The position numbers were made by a program, and so were the translations under genes. A DNA stretch of 64,000 bases. Origin: Siphonodentalium dalli. Its lineage: Eukaryota; Mollusca; Scaphopoda; Gadilida; Siphonodentaliidae. Below, one piece after another: positions 4,106-54,672 of the stretch. The notes beneath the pieces were generated by a model, which saw only the letters and a program-made list of their open reading frames with translations, was not told the DNA's origin and did not search any database. Each line of letters begins with the position of its first letter. The stretch's first letter is position 1. Location: positions 51,854,109-51,918,108 of the forward strand of contig CP136066.1 of the NCBI GenBank assembly GCA_032622095.1. The letters run 5' to 3'.

Positions 4106-5093
4106 CAGCTAGAGTCTTTATACATCTGGGCCTGTATGCTTAGTTCCTTAGACAGCTAGAGTCTTTATACATCTGGGCCTGTATGCTTAGTTCCTTAGAC
4201 AGCTAGAGTCTTTATACATCTGGGCCTGTATGCTTAGTTCCTTAGACAGCTAGAGTCTTTATACATCTGGGCCTGTATGCTTAGTTCCTTAGGCAGCTAG
4301 AGTCTTTATACATCTGGGCCTGTATGCTTAGTTCCTTAGACAGCTAGAGTCTTTATACATCTGGGCCTGTATGCTTAGTTCCTTAGACAGCTAGAGTCTG
4401 TATACATCTGGGCCTGTATGCTTAGTTCCTTAGACAGCTAGAGTCTTTATACATCTGGGCCTGTATACTTAGTTCCTTAGACAGCTAGAGTGTTTATACA
4501 TCTGGACCTGTATGCTTAGTTCCTTAGACAGCTAGAGTCTGTATACATCTGGGCCTGTATGCTTAGTTCCTTAGACAGCTAGAGTCTTTATACATCTGGG
4601 CCTGTATACTTAGTTCATTAGACAGCTAGAGTGTTTGTACATCTGGACATGTATGCTTAGTTCCTTAGACAGCTAGAGTATTTATACATCTGGGCCTGTA
4701 TGCTTAGTTCCTTAGACACCTAGAGTCTTTATACATCTGGGCCTGTATACTTAGTTCCTTAGACAGCTAGAGTGTTTATACATCTGGACCTGTATGCTTA
4801 GTTCCTTAGACAGCTAGAGTCTGTATACATCTGGGCCTGTATGCTTAGTTCCTTAGACAGCTAGAGTCTTTATACATCTGGGCCTGTATACTTAGTTCCT
4901 TAGACAGCTAGAGTGTTTGTACATCTGGACCTGTATGCTTAGTTCCTTAGACAGCTAGAGTATTTATACATCTGGGCCTGTATGCTTAGTTCCTTAGACA
5001 CCTAGAGTCTTTATACATCTGGGCCTGTATGCTTAGTTCCTTAGACAGCTAGAGTGTTTATACATCTGGACCTGTATGCTTAGTTCCTTAGAC
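4106..5093 (+). repeat. 47-bp minisatellite, 21 copies
   Basis: Twenty-one head-to-tail 47-bp units beginning CAGCTAGAGTCTTTATACAT and ending TTAGTTCCTTAGA fill 988 bp. The first six units are almost identical. The later ones form a higher-order pattern: units 10-15 and 16-21 carry the same series of six variants, giving a 282-bp second-order repeat, and units 7-9 begin the same series. There are no unique spacers, so this is not a CRISPR-like array. It ends abruptly into unique sequence on both sides. Confidence 0.95.
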
Positions 5094-14900: not shown

Positions 14901-17900
14901 ATCAATGTCGTTCTAAGGAGCTTTTGGCATTCCAATTTCACAATCTCGACAAATGGTGACCGAATTAAGTAACTTGAACACTTATATTTTCTTAACTTTC
15001 ATATTTATATGGGGATGGAAATCAGGGCATTCCTATAATGATCTAGCAACACAGATACATAGAAGAAAGCATTAAAAGTATATTGATATCAATCTATTTA
15101 AGAGATACATATATTCATTCAAACTGAGGGACCTTGAATCGTCAGAGGATTGCATATTAGAATGGCCCATGTATATATTACTAGAAGGTGGACCGACTTC
15201 GTCCGGACTGTTTCCCCTCTGCTTTTCTGCGAATTGCGCGATTTGACATTGAACTGTCCATTTTGAAGGTCAAGGTGAGGTGGGGTCACAATTTGACGCG
15301 TCCAAAACACTGCCCGGACAAAAGTACCCGACAAAAGTACCCGTCGCAATCCATCCGGTTTTACCCGATTTGACCTTGAATTGATAATTTTGAAGGTCAA
15401 GGTCAGGTCTGGGTCACGATTTGACCCGTCCAAAACACTTAGTGGACAAAAGTAACCATATGTATCAAATTTCGTGAAAATTCCATCAAAATTCGCGATT
15501 TGACGTTGAATTGACTCGATTTCAAGGTCACGTGGCACGGGCAAATGAATAGGCTTATGAAACTCTCGATACGAAAGTATCCCTATACACTAATTTTCAT
15601 CGAAATCCCGTGATATTCTGGCGTTTGACCTTGAAGTGACCCGATTCAAGGTCAATGTCACGTCGCACGGGGAAATTTAATAGGGCTATGCCACTCCCCG
15701 GCCGAAAGTACCCCCACATACCAAGTTTCATCGAAATCCCGTGATATTCGGGCGTTTGACCTTGAAATAACCCGATATCAAGGTAAAGGTCACGTCGCAT
15801 GAACAAATTAATATGCCTATGCCAGTTCCCGGTCGAAGATACCCCCACATACCAAGTTTCATCGAAATCGGGTCGGCCGTTTTCGAGTTCATCGCGATCA
15901 CACAGACAGACACACACACACTCACACACACGCACAGATCTTCCAAAATTTATAATAGACTAGAAGGTGACCCGACTTCGTCCGGGCTTTGACCTTGAAT
16001 TGTCCATTTTGAAGGTCAAGGTCAGGTGGGGTCACGATTTGACCCGTCCAAAACACTGCCCGGACAAAAGTACCCGACAAAAGTATCCGTCGAAATCCAT
16101 CCGGGTTTACCCGATTTGACCTCGAATTGATCATTTTGAAGGTCAAGGTCAGGTCGGGGTCACGATTTGACCTGTCCAAAACACTCAGTGGACAAAAGTA
16201 ACCATATGTATCAAATTTCGTGGAAATCCCATCAAAATTCGCTATTTGACCTTGAATTGACCCGATTTCAAGGTCAAGGTCACGTCGCACGGGCAAATTA
16301 ATAGGCCTATGCCACTCCCCGACAGAAAGTACTCCCACATACCAAGTTTCATAGAAATCCCGTGATATTCGGGCGTTTGACCTTGAAATGACCCGATTGC
16401 ATGGTCATGGTCACGTCGCACGGGCAAATTAATAGGCCCATGTCACTCCCCGGCCGAAAGTACCCCCACATACCAAGTTTCATCGAAATCCCGTGATATT
16501 CGGGCGATTGACCTTGAAATTACCCGATTTCAAGGTCAAGGTCACGTCGCACGGGCAAATTAATAGGCCCATGTCACTCCCCGGCCGAAAATACCCCCAC
16601 ATACGAAGTTTCATCGAAATCGGCTCGGCCGTTTTCGAGTCCATCTATTACAGACAGACAAACATACAGACAGACAGAGGTCTTCAATATATATATATAT
16701 ATATATATATATCTCTCTCTCTCTAGACTCTTTTGATAGAAGAATGAAAACTTGAATCTTGCAGCATGGTACAGCAACTTCCTTAGTGATTGTATACGCC
16801 GTGTTGAGTGTCCTGCTTGCGATAATCTGTACCATCTTGGGGTATATCTTCACACGCATGGTTACCAGAACTATGAATCAGTTCAATTCAAGTATTCGGT
16901 TAATCAAAGGACAAGGGAGACTACTTGAAAAGTCGAAAGAAAAGACAGAGAAACTGCTTTATCAGATTCTACCAACACACGTGGCTGAAGGATTAAAGAA
17001 CAACAAACCAATTAGGCCAGAGGAGTTCCTGGAGACATCGATTTTCTTCAGTGACATTGTTGGTTTCACGAAAATCTGCAGCAAACTAGTGCCTATTAGA
17101 ATCGTGGGTTTACTCAATGGACTATATTAGTGAGTATTTTTATAAGTTTATAACACTCTTGCGATCGCGGAAGGATCGTGAGTAATGATAAGGTTGTAAA
17201 CCACATTGCTATAAACCCTAATAATATGAGATAATTCCGAGTCGTATCATGTGATCCGAGTCCCTTCTCATAACCCCACATGCCACTCCGACACCCTGTT
17301 TTATTCCACTCTTAATCGATCCCTCCCCACTTACCAGTTCCTATAAAGAAAAACCCAAGCCAACCCTATCCCACAAACATATGTGGTGTCAGTTCATAGA
17401 ATATGTATTTCTGCATATATACATATATATAGTCCCACTCCCCGAATTATAATAGATCCTCGCCAATTATCCTTAAGTAATATCGGTTACATACTCTCTT
17501 CAAGAACATATACACAGTATCAGAAGCAATTAGTAGTATTAATATGTATAAGAAAATGTTTGTTGTATTCTTATAATATTGCATGGTTGGAACGGTTTAT
17601 ATATATAATTTGTGTCTCTAATTAATGAAAGGAGCGAATCAGGTTCCCAATTACAGTGGTTGTTCCAATGTTTGTGTCATAATTCAGCATGTTCTCGTGA
17701 AAATAAAACCAATATGGGTTTATTTTGAATGTCTCGTTTTAGGCGCATATAAAGCTTATATTCCGGAGAAAATACTCTCTATATGGGCGTAAAATGTGTC
17801 GTTTAAAATAAGCCCATATAGAGCTTATTTCAATACGAAATAAGCTCACATAGGCACTATTTAAATTAATTAACCTACTTTTACACCGACACGATTTACC

Positions 17901-43249: not shown

Positions 43250-44515
43250 TAGACTCCAGACAAGATGGCGTCCATCATGGCCGCCGTTTTTCAGACCAGA
43301 CCCTTAGTCAGTTTTATGCAAATTATAGCGGGAAAATCTGGTAAAATGTACACAAATGTATATATTTTCGTGAAGCGAAGACATAATGACACTTTTTTGG
43401 ACCAAAACTGAAACTCACCATCCAAGATGGCCGCCAAAATGGTCGCCGGAAGTTGAAAATATGACTTTTTTGCACATATATCTTCTAGATCAATTCATGC
43501 TGTTTGAAACTGGTTGAGTAATGCAACGTTATTTTGTCTTTTGTATATTAACTGATCATGGGAGCAATTAAACATGCAATTATTGGGGTCCTAACCCATT
43601 CCGATACCTCAACAATTCGATTTTACAGAATGTGGTATAAAATTTCACAAAAAAATCACAATTGGGATTCTAGTCATATTTCAACAAGAAATGAACAGAA
43701 CTTTGTAATGTAAGTGAGGCATATCATTACCAATAAAATCCAAGTCACTGGAACCAAAATTCTTACTTTGGCTCAAAATGGCTGCCAATATGGCCGCCAA
43801 AATATGGAAAATGGTAAATATTACACCAGCGTGTCCTGCAATCGCTTACAAGTTTTGGTTGATGTATAAAATTGGCTATTCTGCATTCTATATATTGAAT
43901 ACTAACATGTCTGATGCACCATAGTTAATTGTTACTATTGTCACCACTGACATCGTCAAAAATATTGGACTTTTCTCTCAAAAACTTGACATAAATATTG
44001 GCAAAAATTCACTTTTCAGGTTTGGACCAGTTTTTTCAGGTAAAATATAACTATCTTTGGATTGAAAGGTGTTTATTGTTTTGGTCTATCTTAAGTGTGA
44101 CACCCAAGGATGTTTATAGACCAAATTTCTCAAGATGGCTTCCAAAATGGCAACCAAATTTGTAAAATGTTAATGTTTTACATATATCCCGAACATTCTC
44201 TGCATTATCCGAAAAGGTAGCAAATTGTGACTCACTTGGTTATTATACGTGTTAGTTAATTAACTGACAACTACATGTTCTATTCTGGTTGTCCCAGTTC
44301 CGTATGGGGCATGACAAATTCATTTTAAAGTATGTCATTTTGCCGAGAACCTCTTTTCTAATTTTGGCCATATTTATTGAAAGGAAATGGGCAGAACTTT
44401 GATACAGAACTGAGATGGACCATAATCTTTGGCTATATTCTGGTCCATTATGATAAAAAAAAATATGTCAACAGGATACAGTGTGGATGCAAAGATCGTA
44501 GCCAGGGAGTTACTC

Positions 44516-46171
44516 TATGATCATAACTTTATGTGAGGTGAATAGGTAGTTATTGGGAGTTACAGGGAGTTATTGTATGTCATGACTGGTATGAGTATGT
44601 ATTCAATGAGTGACTATATGGTTATGAGTGGGTTGTCCATGGTAAGATGCATCTAGGTATACATGGAGAGGTCATGGTCAGGTGAATCGATATGCATGGA
44701 GTGACTGTATGGTGTATGCCTGTGTATATTCAGTACGGGTGCACCAGGTGTGCCTGTATGGCCATTGGTGTGGTGTATGGATATAGCTACTTGGTCATCT
44801 ATGTGTTGGTTATGTATATATGGAGTGACTGTAGGGTCATGGGTGGGGTGTACATGTGTTCTCTGTGTGGATAAATAGGGAGTTATTTTATGGTTACGAG
44901 TAATGTGTATATGTATACATGGAATGACTGTACGATCATGGCTGGATATGAATACCTGGAGTAAGCTGGGTGGACATTATCGAGCGTGTGGGTATAGAGG
45001 GAGTGTCCTTGTGGTAACGGGTGGGATGTATATTTATATATCTCGTGGATGTATTATCATTGGTGGGTGTATAGGGCTTAGCTGTATTATCATGGATGGC
45101 GTGTATGACTATACATTGAATTGCTGAATTGTCATGTGTAAGGTGTATATGCAGGTATATATGGATTGTTTGAGTGGTCGTGTGTGTGATTTTTGTATAT
45201 CTGGAAGGGCTGAATGTCCATTAGTGGGGTTTACATGTATACCTGGAGTGAATCTATGGTCTTGGGTGGGCTGCATATGTATATCGAGTGGTTATATGAC
45301 TATGTGTGTCGAATAGGTATACATGTAGTGACTATGGTTAATGGTGAGATGAGTACATGTATGTATACAAGTAGTGACTGTACGATCATAAATGTAATGG
45401 ACATCTATACAGGGGCTGACTACATGGTCATGTGTCAGGCGTATGAGTGTACCCGTTTGGTGACTCGTGGCGGTATTGTCATGTGTAGGTTATACCAGTA
45501 TACACACGTGTTGCTTTATTGTCATGGGCGAGGGATATGTGTATATAGCGAGTGGCTACATGGCCATGGATGAGGTGCATATGTATACATGGAGTGACTA
45601 TTCTGACATGGCTGTGGTGTATTAGTATATCTTGAGTGTCTATTCGGATGTCACGAGTGTGACAAATAGGGATACAGGGAGTGACATGGCCAATGTTGAG
45701 GTGAATATGTATACAAGGATTGACCATGATCATGTATGAATGTTTTGAATAGGTACACACGGGGTGACTATATGGCCATACGTCATGTGAAGGAGTATAC
45801 CAGGTGATATGGGTGAGGGTATGTGTATGAAGCGGATGGCTATATGGCCATTGGTGAGGTGCATATGTATACCGGAGTGACTTTGTGGTCTTTGTTGTGG
45901 TGTTGATGTATATATTGATTGTCTATTTGACCATGCGTTTGGAGAATAGGTATACAGTGGACGACCTTATGGCCAATGGTGAGATGAATGGGTATACAAT
46001 GAGTGACTATATGGTTATGGGTCATGTTTAGGAGTATACCCGGTGTTCCTGCATTGTGATGCGTGGCTGTGTGGTCATCCGTGGTCATGGGTCAGGTGTA
46101 CATGTATAAAGTGGGTCACTATATTGTTATATCTGTGGCGTTTATGTATATATGTAATGACTGTGTGATAA
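44516..46171 (+). repeat. ~42-46-bp minisatellite, forward block
   Basis: Diverged units of the type GTCATGGGTGAGGTGTATAT followed by GTATACATGGAGTGACTATA, roughly forty copies. Many open frames in all phases arise from this array and are not genes. Confidence 0.85.
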
Positions 46172-46265
46172 TGGGTGGCTATCGCTTTCCACGATATGAC
46201 TCTCGGACATGACCTCTCTATTGATTAACATATCCTTGAGTTATTGTGGAAAGCGATAGCCGCCC
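46172..46265. repeat. central hairpin where the minisatellite inverts
   Basis: GGGTGGCTATCGCTTTCCAC is matched by its inverse about 50 bp later. The minisatellite is on the plus strand to the left and on the minus strand to the right, so this is the centre of the palindrome. Confidence 0.85.
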
Positions 46266-46850
46266 ATGTGTACATAAACACCACACAAATGACAACATAA
46301 TCACCCACTTTATACACGTACACCTGATCATACAGCCCTACTTGGTTATACCCGTACATACCACAAATGAAGATACAGCCACGAGTCACCATGCATGAAC
46401 ACCATGTATACACCTACACCCGACACATGACCATATAGTCACTCTGTGTATACATATTCACTACATTCACGATCATACAGTCACTCATTGTATAAATATT
46501 CACCTCAACATGGACCATACAACCACTACATCTATACCTATTCGCCATACCCATGACCATAGAGTCAATCCAAGTATACATATGCACATCACCAATGGTG
46601 AGCCCTTCCAGATATACCAATACCCGCACATACGACCACTCATAAGTTCCATTCTTGCCATACTCATACACGCCATCCATGATCATACATCTACTCCACA
46701 TACACCACAAATGATAACACACCCACAACATATATACATATACGTCCCACCGTTACCAACAAGGCACTCCCTGTGTACCCACACATCATTCATGACCATA
46801 CAACAACTCCATGTATACCTATTATCCTCATCTACGATCATAGCGTAACT
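46266..46850 (-). repeat. ~42-46-bp minisatellite, inverted block
   Basis: The same units as 44516-46171 in the opposite orientation (CATGACCATATAGTCACTCT and similar), about fourteen copies. This arm is about one third the length of the other. Confidence 0.85.
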
Positions 46851-48015
46851 CACTGGCTGCCATATTGGCTTCCACCCTGTATCCAGTTGATAAATTTGTA
46901 TCACAATGGGCCAGAATACCCACATATCATGGTCCATCTCAGTTCCGTCTCAAAGTTCTGCCCATTTCCTTTCAATAATATGGCCAGAATCACAAAAGAG
47001 GTTCTTCTCAAAATTCATACTGCAACTTTAAAATGAATTTGTCATGCCCCATACGGAATTGAGACAAACACAATAGAACGTAGTTGTCAGTTAATTAACT
47101 AACACGTACAATAATCAAGTGAGTCATAATTTGCTGCCTTTTCGGATAACGCAAAGAATAATGTTCTGGATATGTTAACTTTTAACTTTTTACAAATTTG
47201 GTTGCCATTTTGGATGCCATCTTGAGCAATTTAGTATATAAACACCGTAGTGTAACACATTTAAGATAGACCAAAACAATAAACACCTTTGATACCAAAG
47301 ATAGTTGTATTTTACTTGAACAAATGGTCCGAACCCTGAAAAGTTATTTTTTGCCGATATTTATGTCAAGTTTGTGAGAGAAAAATCCAATATTTCTGGT
47401 GATGTCAGTGGTGACAATAGTAAAACTGATCCATGGTGCATCAGTCATGTTAGTATGCAGCGTATATAATACAGATTAGCCAATTGTATACATCAACCAC
47501 AACTTGTAAGCGATTGCAGGACACCCTGGGGCAATATTTACCATTTTCCATATTTTGGCGGCCATTTTCGCAGCCATTTTGAGCCAAGGTAAGATTTTTG
47601 GTTCCAAAGAGTTGGAATATTCATAACTAATGATATGCCTCACTTACATTACAATGTTCTTTTCATTTCTTGTTGAAATATGACTAGAATCCCAATTGTG
47701 ATTTTTTGTAAAATTTTGTACCGGGGGTCGGAAAAACAATTCAGGCACGTATGGCATTTTTTCCCTTTCGATCATTTTTTGTACCCACCCACCCCCACCG
47801 CCAAATTTGTTTCCGTTCTCGGCAGTTTTTTCCGACCATTTTTGGACACCCACCCCCCTTTTAACACTAAAACAGAGATTTTCGGGGGGAAATTCACTGT
47901 AAACAGCTGTATATGAATTTCTGTGCATACTATTTATCATGGATGTTAACATGGACATGTAAATAGGAATGAGTCATATTGAGGTCATTCTGCCAAAAAA
48001 ACATGGCTGCCAGCG

Positions 48016-49160: not shown

Positions 49161-50584
49161 CGAGATTATGATGCAAGTTGAGTTTTGTAATTATTCTACA
49201 CCGTTCAGTCAGATAAGTTAAATCCATGAATGTCACCTCCATTGTTACTATATCTACCTTTATTGTGATTTAAGTCTGACAAATAACCAGTAATTATGGG
49301 GGATCAATGGAAGCGGATGATCGATGTAATGTACGTCATCTTTCATGGCGACAACGTCAACAAGAATAGTTCTGGCTTGTATTCCACTAGAGGTATATAC
49401 ACTTATATGTATTCAATGGCTGGGATTCCGTTGAATACATGTGCCTCGCATCAATGGGTGTGGTATAAATATATATAAATGCATGTCAAATTCATATTTA
49501 TAAGCGATCAAGTAAATTACACACAAGAAAGTCAACCCAATTATCGCCATTAAAAGACAAACGCACGTTTTGCATCCATCCTGGCAAAATTGCAAGATAC
49601 TTTTAACACAGAATATATCTGGATCTATTCCAACATATCCTCGCACAAATGCGCAGATAATCGACCTATAATGTGAAATAGGTACATAATGTTATGATTT
49701 GATTAGGAAAAAAAATTACCCTTCGCGTTGGCATATATTGTCATGTATTCGCTCTGCACGACGCCATTGGCTAAAACAGATAATTTCTCAAATATACACG
49801 AGAAACATATGGTGGATGATATACACATATAGCAGAAGCGTTTCAAAAGACTTGTCTTCAATCAGTAATTGTAACGTTCACCCAGGTCGCAATATACATG
49901 TAGCCCGGGAATATGCGGGCTCAGTGGTGTTATGTATAGCCAAATTGTGATATATATTGACTATATAAACCCATAATGGAAAACGAAGAACTGTCGTCTT
50001 CTGTTGTGACTTTTGTTTTATCACTGTTTCGTGTTGATGTTCTTATGGAATGCCCAACCGCTTCGCCCAGTGTATCTGCCTCGAATTGCAGTGACATAAT
50101 TGAAACATCAAAGCTCGTCTGTTGTATGTACTTGGAAATATATCGTCTATAGCAAATACCTTTAACATTTTATGGTACTGATATAGTAATTAGAAGCCAA
50201 ATTACTTACGCTGGTATAGATTCCGTGGCGTATATTCCACATTTTGCTATTCCAATTCCGGTTATCGAATATACACAGCAATATACAGTACAGTGGAAAC
50301 GTCAATTCAAAATCTTTGCTCTTTATATAGTTTTTATAACCAAATTACAGTATTATCATACTCTATTTATATTCTTGTTGTTCATACTGTTCTAGAGATA
50401 AATTAATTTATTTCAATCGAACTTTTGATATGATGTCGTTATTCAATGTAGTTTCGGAAGTTAGTTCATGCATGTGGTACATGTACCACCCTACTGCTAG
50501 CATGAGTTGTTGTATCAAATGTTTAGTGTTCACCTATAAGGTCGAAATCCGGCTTTTCTCTATTTGGTCGAGATTGTGAGGATG
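49161..50584. other. intergenic, with a family D end at ~49640
   Basis: GCACAAATGCGCAGATAATC followed by CTATAATGTGAAATAGGTAC (49644-49690) is the terminal part of repeat family D. The rest is AT-rich without a gene I can support. Confidence 0.5.
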
Positions 50585-51835
50585 GGTGTGACTAATTAGT
50601 GCCCGGGCACGCCCGGGCAAGCCCGGGCACGCCCGGGCAGGTCCGGGTGTTCTCATGGGCCCGCAGACAGTCTAATATGATGCCACATGGTAGTAGGATA
50701 CAGAATAAGCATATATTGTGAAAATTGACTTGCTGTGTCGTCCACCGGCGGGTTTATTAACCATTTAAATGCCGATATTGACTAAAAGAACCCGGGAGAG
50801 CCCAGACAGACGCATAGACCCGACCATATTATATATTGATGACTAATGGTAGCGAGGCACTTACTAAAGGTATATATTGCAAATATTGACTCGCTATCTC
50901 GCTCGCGGCCGGCTTCATTAACCCCTTAAATGACGATATGCGCCAGAAGAACATGGCGCAAGCCCGGGCACGCCCGGGCAGGCCCTGGTGGTCTCATGGG
51001 CCCGCAGACAGTCTAATATGATGTCATATGGTAGTAGGATACAGAATAAGCATATATTTTGAAAATTGACTTGCTGTGTCGTCCACCGGCGGGTTTATTA
51101 ACCCTCTAAATATCGATATTAACTAAAAGAACCCGGGAGAGACCGGACGGACACAGAAACCTGATAATATTATATATTGATGACTAATGGTAGCGAGGCA
51201 CTTACTAAAGGTATATTGCAAATATTGACTCGCTATCTCGTTCGCCGCCGGCTTCATTAACCCCTTAAATAACGATATGCGTCAGAAGAACGCGGCAAGC
51301 CCGGGCAAGCCCGGACAGGCCCTGGCTGCCTCCTGAACCCGCGGACAGTCTAATATGATTCCGTACGGTAGTAGGATTCTGAATAAGCATGCAAATTTAC
51401 TTGCTGTGTCATCAACCGGTGGGTTTATTAACACTTTAAATGCCGATATTAACTTAAAGAACCCGGGAGAGCCTCGACTGACACAGCGACCCGATCATAT
51501 TATATATTGATGAATAATGGGATCGAGGCACTTACTAAAGGTATATTGCAAATATTGACTGGCTATTTCGTTCGCGGCCGGCTTTAGTAATCCCTTAAAT
51601 GACGATCTGCACCAAGAGAGCACGGGAAAGCCCGTGCAAGTCCGGGCAAGCCCTGATGGCCTCATGGGCCCGCGGACAGTCTAATATGATGTCGTATGGT
51701 AGTAGGATATATACAGAATAAGCATAGATTATGAAAATTGACTTGCTGTGTCGTCCACCGGCGGGTTAATTAACCATTTAAATGCCGATATTAACTAGAA
51801 GAACCCCGGAGACTTCTCGGGTTCGGTGATACATT

Positions 51836-52889
51836 CGGGTTTGGCGATATACCACGTACACGGGGTGAACTACGGGAATAAATAATAAGGTTTTAGAGAA
51901 CTTATAAACTTTATTTCATCTAAACGGCACTATCAGTAAATAAAAAAAATAAAATATATATATATATATCACATCACCTTGAAACATTTTATACATAAAT
52001 ATATTTGCAAGTAAAAATCATACTGTGCACAACATTTCCCGGAAATAGAATCGCTTGAATGATATTACTATAATGGAGACAGAAGTACGATAACAAAACT
52101 CCATCCAAATAATTGTCATTTCAATTTCAGAAATGAAACTATGCGTCATGCATAATTTATATTCCATTAATCTCTATATTTTCCCTTTTGGTAAGTTATA
52201 GAACTTAAAATTGCAGGACATTTTGTCCGAGAAAAACAGAATAGCTATCTTCAAATAAGTTGTTCTGTGTATAGATCAGTTAAAATTTCTAAATTCTCAA
52301 ATAAACAGAATATTTGTGTATACGCGTATAATTTCCAGGAATGTTCGGGAAACAATATGTACATGATAGTATAAAAGCATTTATGGGGAAAACTCACAAC
52401 AGCTGAAACGAAAAATGTCCACCAACAGTACTATATAAGACACACATATATACACGTGTTTGCAATATAGGGCAAATGAATATAATTTTGTCAAATTGTT
52501 TAGAACATTTCCCGGAAATCTAATCACTCGAACTTCCATATATATGTGTATTTTCGAAAGATTTATCGGACATTTTCAAATGTTTACAGTTAACAAAGGA
52601 TGCTAAAACTAGTTAGTAACAATTGGGTGATTGGCGGAATGTTCAAATGTTAAACTTCAAGAGTGATTGATTTCTAACTAATTTGTTTCTCACAGTTCGT
52701 GCATATATGATTTCCAGGAATGTTCATGAAACAATTTATGAATAATAATAACAAGCAAAACAAATATGAGAACCACAAGATATATAACAATCATACCTAC
52801 TAATAGCACAATTGAAAGTATAATATATACATACACGTGAATAGATATATAATTCAAATCTTTTTCAAACTGTTTGCATAGTTCTACCC
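51836..52889. other. interior of the foldback element, AT-rich
   Basis: Contains internal duplications: CATTTCCCGGAAATMKAATC near 52035 and 52508, and TTCCAGGAATGTTC near 52333 and 52713. There is an (AT)n tract at about 51955-51970. The small hydrophobic minus-strand frame at 52690-52911 is not convincing as a gene. Confidence 0.5.
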
Positions 52890-52973
52890 AATAACATAGC
52901 TTTCTGCACAAGGTCTTCGTCAGTGATGATATATCATCACTGATGAAGGCCTGATGCCGAAAGCTATGTTATT
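52890..52973. repeat. hairpin inside the foldback element
   Basis: AATAACATAGCTTTCTGCAC, an intervening CTTCGTCAGTGATGAT and the inverted right half form arms of about 40 nt with a palindromic centre (TGATGATATATCATCA). Confidence 0.85.
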
Positions 52974-53560
52974 GAACAGATCTAACTAGATGTGCATCTA
53001 CTACACGGGCCCTGTCTTAGTGGGTGACCCATGATGTGCCAGATGTTTGCAATATTGTATAAGAATGGTATCGCTTATTTGAAGTTGATACCATATTGAC
53101 GTATTTTCAAAATACACTGAGGTTGATCGAATGTTTAAAACTTTAACAGAATACTAGCTACTGGCTGTACATATCAAACATGTAAAACCTGGTGTTGTAG
53201 CATAACAATTTGCGTAAATGGGTGAATTCCAGGACATTGTAGTATTCAAATAAAATTTCAGAAAAGTAAGCTACTCTAAAGAAAATCGGAATATAACTAT
53301 GTATAAATATGTGATTTAATACATGACCTTTTTTTCGCTAAGGATAGTAACGATGCTCTCTCTTCAAAACTGACCGAACTATGTTATTGTCAATGCTTAT
53401 TACATTATTTGTATGTATCACACGCTCGATCAGACTGTTTAAAATTCAGAACCACTAGAATTGCAACATTGGACTTGGAAACAAACATTGAAACATCGAT
53501 TGAACTATCAAATTAAAATCACATAGACACTATATAGTCACTATCAAATAAGAAGTATTG

Positions 53561-53794
53561 TCAGTTTTTTTGTCTTTTCGGTGCGCTGGATGTCTTTGCC
53601 GATTTTGTACGTTTTTTCTGCGATGGTTTTCGTGCCGTTGGTGTTGTTCGTGGAACGGTTAGTGTACCATCTGTTGATGTTACTGTGCTTGATTTCCTCG
53701 ATTGACCGCTTAAAAATTTACGGACCTTGCATGATTTCTCCTCGTCTGTCATAGTTGTCCACTGTGAATGAAGCACACGAGTCAATATTTGCAA
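53561..53794 (-). CDS. possible terminal exon of an element-borne gene, basic tail
   Basis: The minus-strand frame begins inside the right arm, but TTCATTCACAG at about 53765 looks like a splice acceptor, so the coding part may start at WTTMTDEEKSCKVRKFLSG. It ends in a Ser/Thr/Lys/Arg-rich tail (KKRTKSAKTSSAPKRQKN) that looks nuclear. No family recognised. A host-gene fragment, an element gene or a chance frame all remain possible. Confidence 0.3.
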   Translation of the reverse strand: MQILTRVLHSQWTTMTDEEKSCKVRKFLSGQSRKSSTVTSTDGTLTVPRTTPTARKPSQKKRTKSAKTSSAPKRQKN

Positions 53795-54672
53795 TATATA
53801 CCTTTAGTAAGTGCCTCGCTACCATTAGTCATCAATATATAATATGGTCGGGTCGATGCGTCCGTCTGGGCTCTACCGGTTCTTTTAGTCAATATCGGCA
53901 TTTAAATGGTTAATAAACCCGCCGGTGGACGACACAGCAAGTCAATTTTCCTAATATATGCTTATTCTGTATCCTACTACCATATGGCATCATATTAGAC
54001 TGTCTGCGGGCCCATGAGACCACCAAGACCTGCCCGGGCGTGCCCGGGCTTGCGCCATGTTCTTCTGGCGCATATCGTCATTTAAGCGGTTAATGAAGCC
54101 GGCCGCGAACGAGATAGCGAGTCAATATTTGCAATATATACCTTTAGTAAGTGTCTCGCTACCATTAGTCATCAATATATAATATGGTCGGGTCTATGCG
54201 TCCGTCTGGGCTCTCCCGGGTTCTTTTAGTCAATATCGGCATTTAAATGGTTAATAAACCCGCCGGTGGACGACACAGCAAGTCAATTTTCCTAATATAT
54301 GCTTATTCTGTATCCTACTACCATATGACATCATATTAGACTGTCTGTGGGCCCATGAGACCACCAAGACCCGCCCGGGCGTGCCCGGGCTTGCCCGGGC
54401 ACTAATTAGTCACACCGGTGAGGATGATTTATATTTTTAACTTACTCTTGATCGCGTAGATACGTTCTCGTGTCGTGTGATTGTTTTAATAGTAGTAAGA
54501 TTTAAAAAACAAAATTACTTTGATGTGAGTGTATATACTCACTTCCAACATATCAAAGCAAATGAGATTTGTCAGTCAGTTATAGGTATAACCGCTACTG
54601 TCGGTGTGTTTCCCCAAATAGCTTCGCTTCCTGGTACTTTATTTTCTTTGTCTAAGTTGCATCATAGATCTG

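Follow-up and report, generated by a model that had tools for sequence, protein, structure and literature searches.

A stretch of 64,000 nucleotides from the genome of the scaphopod mollusc Siphonodentalium dalli (assembly GCA_032622095.1, contig CP136066.1, positions 51,854,109 to 51,918,108 of the forward strand; hereafter the window) contains, at positions 50584-54417, a structure with inverted arms of satellite-like tandem units, which raises the question of whether it is a mobile element or a chromosomal palindrome and, if mobile, to which group it belongs. An initial annotation made from the letters alone had proposed an intact foldback transposon that inserted as a unit, and the present analysis confirmed that the structure is a real transposon. 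It is almost certainly a non-autonomous DNA transposon of the Mutator superfamily in the broad sense, with a Rehavkus-like design, derived by internal deletion from a PHD-OTU-DDE element resembling a 24.4-kb copy located elsewhere in the genome. What carries this reading is that copies have their ends and an 8-bp target site duplication in common, that sites empty of the element exist, that larger copies hold transposase frames between such ends, and that copies are related by internal deletion. The kind is already known, namely foldback elements of the Mutator superfamily, and the sequence family appears to be new.

Shared ends and the element family

The genome searched comprises 2.23 Gb in nine contigs, cited here as C followed by a number, with the window lying on C6. 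An 18-mer taken from the element end occurred 346 times (167 forward and 179 reverse), compared with no occurrence in either orientation for a reversed control, which excludes chance and establishes the shared terminus for which a genome-wide search had been proposed. A hand count of the first 100 places listed gave 38 convergent plus/minus pairs (76 places), with members 1.0-8.2 kb apart. The first 20 of these pairs in listing order, together with the window copy, constitute the 21 small elements that were read; addition of a 12.4-kb and a 24.4-kb copy brings the elements read to 23. The copies have fixed borders with 8-bp duplications rather than random borders. When the middle part (51830-53780) served as query, the longest matching piece per candidate was 94-100% identical (40 of 142 candidates scored, window included). 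The element family is real, and the likeness among its copies suggests recent activity. It was not met in the literature searched, a comparison made apart from the sequences of Repbase.

Target site duplication and empty sites

An exact 8-bp duplication flanks 22 of the 23 elements read, and in the small elements one common register yields an exact 8-bp repeat in 20 of 21. In all 21 small elements the two ends carry an identical base between duplication and inverted repeat (G/G or C/C on one strand), which implies one terminal base outside the inverted repeat; turning the C-type copies over gives a single form, GGGTGTGAC...GTCACACCG. Copies were oriented by this asymmetric base, and once they are so oriented the shared interiors run in one direction. 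The duplication had been described as 9 bp long, and GTGAGGATG is indeed present at 50576-50584 and 54418-54426, but the duplication proper is the 8-bp GTGAGGAT. The repeat appears longer in the window because the base after the right duplication is G, as is the asymmetric terminal base that adjoins the left one, so that the ninth match is coincidental. A 9-bp duplication was rejected on account of the exact 8-bp register in 20 of 21 small elements and the extra same-letter base inside it. The 22 exact duplications (20 small and 2 large elements) show a modest target preference: 17 of them carry A at position 7 (one-sided binomial p ~1e-5) and 13 carry T at position 2 (p ~0.007), the expectation being derived from the base composition of the window.

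The flanks of the window element, joined with a single GTGAGGAT, match C6:51450344-51450755 at 99% identity without an internal gap, and also match C7:154605337-154605726 at 84% with gaps. At both of these paralogous empty sites the element is absent and GTGAGGAT occurs once at the junction, which bears out insertion as a unit; they leave the choice between 8 and 9 bp aside, since both readings give identical joined flanks. The near-identical C6 paralogue suggests, unless the copies were equalised by gene conversion, that a region had recently been duplicated and that one of its copies then received the element.

Large copies and their transposase

Two large copies have the family ends and an exact 8-bp duplication: one of 12,432 bp at C4:85604213-85616644, flanked by ATATATAG, and one of 24,417 bp at C8:130714424-130738840, flanked by GGCATAAG. 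Both contain the core of a Mutator-type transposase, an enzyme that had been suggested as something to look for between such ends, and this core between the same ends corroborates the kinship with Mutator elements that have long terminal inverted repeats (TIRs). A small copy, L004, holds a 216-amino-acid frame whose last part is also present in the window. Neither this C-terminal frame nor a 111-amino-acid frame from other copies gave anything above cut-off in Pfam, and longer frames were needed. The 216-amino-acid frame has at least 150 genome matches (150 of 1,188 candidates scored), down to 28% identity, and those listed include near-identical copies within 410-amino-acid frames and relatives within frames of more than 1,000 amino acids.

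The core frame of the 12.4-kb copy scores 22.1 bits against the Pfam profile Transposase_mut (cut-off 21) and 26.3 bits against the profile MULE (Mutator-like element; cut-off 27.6). Transposase_mut passes its curated cut-off in all three core proteins, with 26 and 29.2 bits in two relatives, L023 and L024. Four proteins were aligned, two of them near-identical copies of each other, and all four agree in the candidate D, D and E residues (within VDRTFN, GSDEE and NNSCES) and in a CxxH motif; these we take to be the D, D, E and C/DxxH positions of Mutator transposases.

In the 24.4-kb copy, an upstream open frame matches PHD (27.1 bits, cut-off 24, profile positions 12-47 of 47) and probably belongs with the transposase core, while another upstream frame matches OTU (ovarian tumour) with 27.8 bits in a shorter cut and 26.9 in a longer one (cut-off 23.3). 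Splice-like sites occur at the expected joins between frames, namely at the end of the middle frame (AAACAG/GTAAAC), at the start of the core frame (TTTTCAAG/GTCCGC) and, as GTGAGT, close to the end of the OTU frame. The OTU part recurs at 97% identity or more in at least five places, three of them in the 143-144 Mb region of C8 (150 of 177 candidates scored); set against 346 exact ends, this makes copies with the full frame set look rare. A third candidate long copy, from C2:44735086 onward, has left-arm sequence and the OTU part, with a right-arm match of just 0.2 kb in the pieces fetched.

The two relatives, at C2:204962900-204967400 (L023) and C5:248311700-248316200 (L024), have uninterrupted frames of 1,008 and 1,076 amino acids, respectively, in which PHD finger, OTU-like part and Mutator-type core are all combined. 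PHD, in one frame with the core, reaches 24.1 bits in L023 and 23.7 in L024, the latter just under the cut-off of 24; the OTU-like part is weak (13.9 bits, L024 only).

Origin of the small copies by internal deletion

At least 99.5% of the sequence of 15 of the 21 small elements is covered by the 24.4-kb copy, matches on either strand being counted. The window copy corresponds to the left 4.2 kb of that copy, minus some arm units, followed by its right arm; these two parts are 98.2% and 97.4% identical to the corresponding ends of the 24.4-kb copy, relative to which ~17.5 kb is missing according to the alignment chain. The left arm and middle of the window copy are 98% identical to both large copies. 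Several copies have deletion joins in common, for instance at ~3,530, 4,265 and 19,344 of the 24.4-kb copy, and the deleted forms were therefore probably amplified as such.

Other arrangements of family sequence were also observed. One small element, L020 (C2:157643123-157647734), contains ~2.8 kb in which two frames, of 424 and 311 codons, resemble reverse transcriptase by eye. At C8:143029500-143037500 (L030) lies a palindrome, 98.4% alike and at least 7.6 kb long, with an inner part made of the family's left half and transposase end; it extends past the family sequence, and an amplified palindrome and an assembly effect are both possible. Further inverted pairs of family sequence lie close to 143.65 and 144.03 Mb on C8.

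Structure of the arms

The exact inverted ends and the tandem arm units that had been described in the window were both found, the former with 25 identical bp and the latter at a spacing of 330-341 bp, and the two arms align over 523 nucleotides at 96% identity. Each unit is, as had been suggested, a dimer of ~170-bp halves: stretches of 102 nucleotides recur every 159-183 bp with 67-69% identity, and the best local alignment of two halves, with 60 of 81 positions identical, scores 57, whereas 200 shuffles reach 23 at most. About half of each 161-180-bp half aligns in this way. The GC-rich island inside the end proved to be a 10-bp repeat, GCCCGGGCAC, whose length varies among elements, mostly by 10-bp steps.

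Unit motifs number 1-8 forward and 1-5 reverse across the 21 small elements (with up to 3 mismatches), and the 24.4-kb copy has 7 on the left and 11 on the right, in arms of 2.3 and 3.8 kb composed of 331-341-bp units. The middles of the elements differ as well; with long inverted arms of tandem repeats in varying number around such middles, the family has the structure that defines foldback elements. In the 24.4-kb copy, with gaps ignored, the 10 units of the right arm are on average 97.7% identical to one another and the 6 units of the left arm 91.7%, and units of opposite arms average 93.4%, values that fit local homogenisation, strongest in the right arm. Open frames of ~120 codons in the arm units were not accepted as genes, because unit lengths are several (331-341 bp) and mostly not multiples of three, and the frames are bound to the repeat and recur with it.

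An exact 16-mer of the unit has 1,063 genome matches (535 + 528; reversed control 0 + 1), and a 25-mer allowing up to 3 mismatches has 1,195 (608 + 587; control 0 + 0). No large satellite arrays of the unit were seen among the first 100 places listed per query, which showed only element-sized blocks or single motifs; these places lie on C1 and C2, so that clustering was judged on part of the genome, those of the 25-mer are all exact matches, and the search reaches exact or near-exact units, a strongly diverged satellite being beyond it. The proposed link to centromere-type satellites is accordingly not supported.

Comparison with known elements

The FB/NOF foldback elements of Drosophila have long inverted arms of tandem repeats and a 9-bp duplication; by this general description the present family resembles them in its tandem-repeat inverted arms and differs in its unit and in the length of the duplication. 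The nearest elements in structure are Rehavkus-1_TC, Tetris and Tm1, among which Rehavkus-1_TC has the closest design. Rehavkus-1_TC of Tribolium castaneum is 9.5 kb long, and its inverted termini hold a 164-bp satellite unit arranged in short arrays (PMC10218199), which is similar to the tandem units with 161-180-bp halves described here, and a PHD finger is listed for the Rehavkus group (PMC6446971). The differences are the length of 9.5 kb there and the 9-bp duplications listed for its group, as opposed to elements here of as much as 24.4 kb with duplications of 8 bp and dimeric units of 330-341 bp; the OTU domain of the present family may be a further difference.

Tetris of Drosophila virilis, assigned to Mutator by its authors, is likewise a foldback element, with ~220-bp tandem arm repeats in variable number and 8-10-bp duplications (PMC4079207). 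Unlike the present family, which has transposase frames between the same ends, Tetris had no transposase-encoding copy found, and its unit also builds kb-size satellite-like arrays, of which there are none here among the places listed (PMC4079207). Tm1 of Meloidogyne, classed as Mutator/Foldback, is comparable in that its ends are foldback-like composites with a variable number of tandem units and with asymmetric terminal motifs, its transposase is of Mutator type (Phantom-like) and it has non-autonomous derivatives. It differs in that its units measure 13-15 bp, its duplications are mostly of 9 bp and its transposase copy is 2.6 kb long (PMC3169594).

With respect to domains, Table 1 of PMC6446971 lists an OTU gene for MuDR-6_HM, a MULE of Hydra, with no entry for TIR, duplication length or zinc finger. 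Ulp1 has been reported in other Mutator elements, Ginger elements and Helitrons are named as carriers of OTU, and Mutator transposases figure in a PHD alignment; the available part of the same paper names no Mutator element with both OTU and PHD (PMC2836005). A literature search combining MULE and "OTU domain" found no paper. As for size, a survey of arthropod MULEs describes complete elements of up to ~10 kb, its main text containing no word that begins with OTU or PHD (PMC13359780), and none of the plant Pack-MULEs of one survey exceeds 7 kb (PMC6431247); judged by these maxima, the 24.4-kb element is large.

Alternative explanations

The structure could in principle be a chromosomal palindrome or a piece of satellite DNA, an idea to which its arms of tandem satellite-like units and the palindrome bearing family sequence at C8:143029500-143037500 lend some appeal. 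Its probability is negligible: the empty sites refute it, the fixed borders and 8-bp duplications speak against it, and the 1,063 exact and 1,195 near-exact unit motifs lie, among the places listed, in element-sized blocks or alone. Another assignment, to a hAT- or P-type element, draws on the target preference, since hAT elements favour the pattern nTnnnnAn, whose T (position 2) and A (position 7) are found in 13 and 17, respectively, of the 22 exact duplications. It is nevertheless very improbable, as the profiles matched by the core frames are those of the Mutator family, none for a hAT or P transposase appeared at E <=1, and 8 bp falls within the 8-11-bp range of MULEs, whose TIRs are typically long (PMC6446971). 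Membership of the Mutator superfamily, by comparison, agrees with the DDE transposase in the larger copies, the 8-bp duplication within that range and the long TIRs. A sharper form of this assignment would make the family true Rehavkus, that is, a member of the PHD-finger sister group of MULEs with satellite-like repeats in inverted ends, for which the chances are slightly less than even. The PHD finger in the upstream frame of the 24.4-kb copy speaks for it, together with the listing of the Rehavkus group with a PHD finger and minisatellite (PMC6446971) and the satellite unit in the inverted termini of Rehavkus-1_TC (PMC10218199), whereas the group is listed with 9-bp duplications (PMC6446971) as against 8 bp in 22 of 23 elements here, and the likeness is one of published descriptions.

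Several observations weigh against a Mutator-superfamily element shortened from a 24.4-kb-like PHD-OTU-DDE ancestor. None of the three core proteins reaches the MULE cut-off of 27.6 (26.3, 20.8 and 24.9 bits), Transposase_mut is barely above its own cut-off for the core of the family itself (22.1 versus 21), and the OTU part is unmatched in the 12.4-kb copy. The predicted gene structure of the 24.4-kb copy derives from open frames and splice-like sites rather than transcripts, and no transposition has been observed. Among the copies, the duplication of L011 has 3 mismatches in the common 8-bp register, 24 of the 100 listed ends are without a partner bearing the exact 18-mer, and 6 of the 21 small elements (L002, L008, L009, L017, L018 and L020) hold DNA absent from the 24.4-kb copy, L018 being a diverged relative with arms only ~80% alike and otherwise different.

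Features of the element and other repeats in the window

The features of the window element are compiled in Table 1. Its middle also contains two pairs of 42-45-bp repeats (52018-52059/52491-52532 and 52327-52371/52706-52750) with cores TTCCCGGAA or TTCCAGGAA.

Table 1. Positions of the transposon and its component features within the window
Feature	Position	Strand	Description
Transposon	50584..54417	+	3,834 bp; termini GGGTGTGACTAATTAG...CTAATTAGTCACACCG; terminal base G on top strand at both ends
Target site duplication, left copy	50576..50583	.	8 bp, GTGAGGAT
Target site duplication, right copy	54418..54425	.	8 bp, GTGAGGAT
Outer terminal inverted repeat, left	50585..50609	+	25 bp, exact versus right
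Outer terminal inverted repeat, right	54392..54416	-	25 bp, exact versus left
Left arm	50585..51812	+	1.2 kb; 4 unit motifs; 330-341-bp units, two related halves each
Right arm	53778..54417	-	0.64 kb; 2 unit motifs; inverted versus left arm
Middle	51813..53777	-	3' (downstream) part of transposase gene and last codons
GC-rich 10-bp tandem repeat	50601..50647	+	GCCCGGGCAC; just inside left end
Paired inverted arms	52879..52984	.	53 bp each, adjacent, 83%; in middle part; many copies have them
Transposase C-terminal fragment	53561..53782	-	~73 codons (query residues 144-216), 97% identical, then stop codon
Internal deletion junction	53778..53780	.	3-bp microhomology CGA

A second, older foldback-like structure lies at 43634-47722. 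Its outer arms (43634-44615 and 46762-47722) are 84% alike, its interior consists of degenerate tandem repeats, often at 42-bp spacing and also inverted, with halves of opposite GC skew, and no clear target duplication was seen by eye at its borders. Elsewhere in the window, a 47-bp unit is repeated 21 times at 4106-5093 (94% matches), and 131-bp tandem units bearing TCAAGGTCA motifs occupy 15522-15869 and 16190-16621.

Proposed mechanism and implications

Transposase supplied in trans by a full-length copy would bind the ends, perhaps at many points of the repeated arms; multiple transposase binding sites in long arms have been described for Galileo (PMC3688188, PMC4079207). The enzyme would then excise the element and reinsert it with an 8-bp stagger. 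Deletions may arise through faulty gap repair involving microhomology, and the number of arm units may shift by unequal pairing between units. A bolder proposal, which we consider rather unlikely, is that the family belongs to a large undescribed animal lineage of PHD-OTU-DDE Mutator-type elements, and that in this family the arms would have grown into dimeric satellite-like arrays serving as multi-site landing pads for transposase, with the OTU deubiquitinase of the element actively aiding transposition.

The most interesting part of the family is the 24.4-kb element with its PHD, OTU and transposase frames, a combination of PHD and OTU with a Mutator-type core that adds to the scattered cases of ubiquitin- and SUMO-protease domains in DNA transposons. 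Deleted copies and the 12.4-kb and 24.4-kb copies with a transposase core coexist in one genome and have the same ends. The stages that lead from a giant element encoding a transposase to short, amplified derivatives can be followed one by one, and what the repeated arms do can now be tested.

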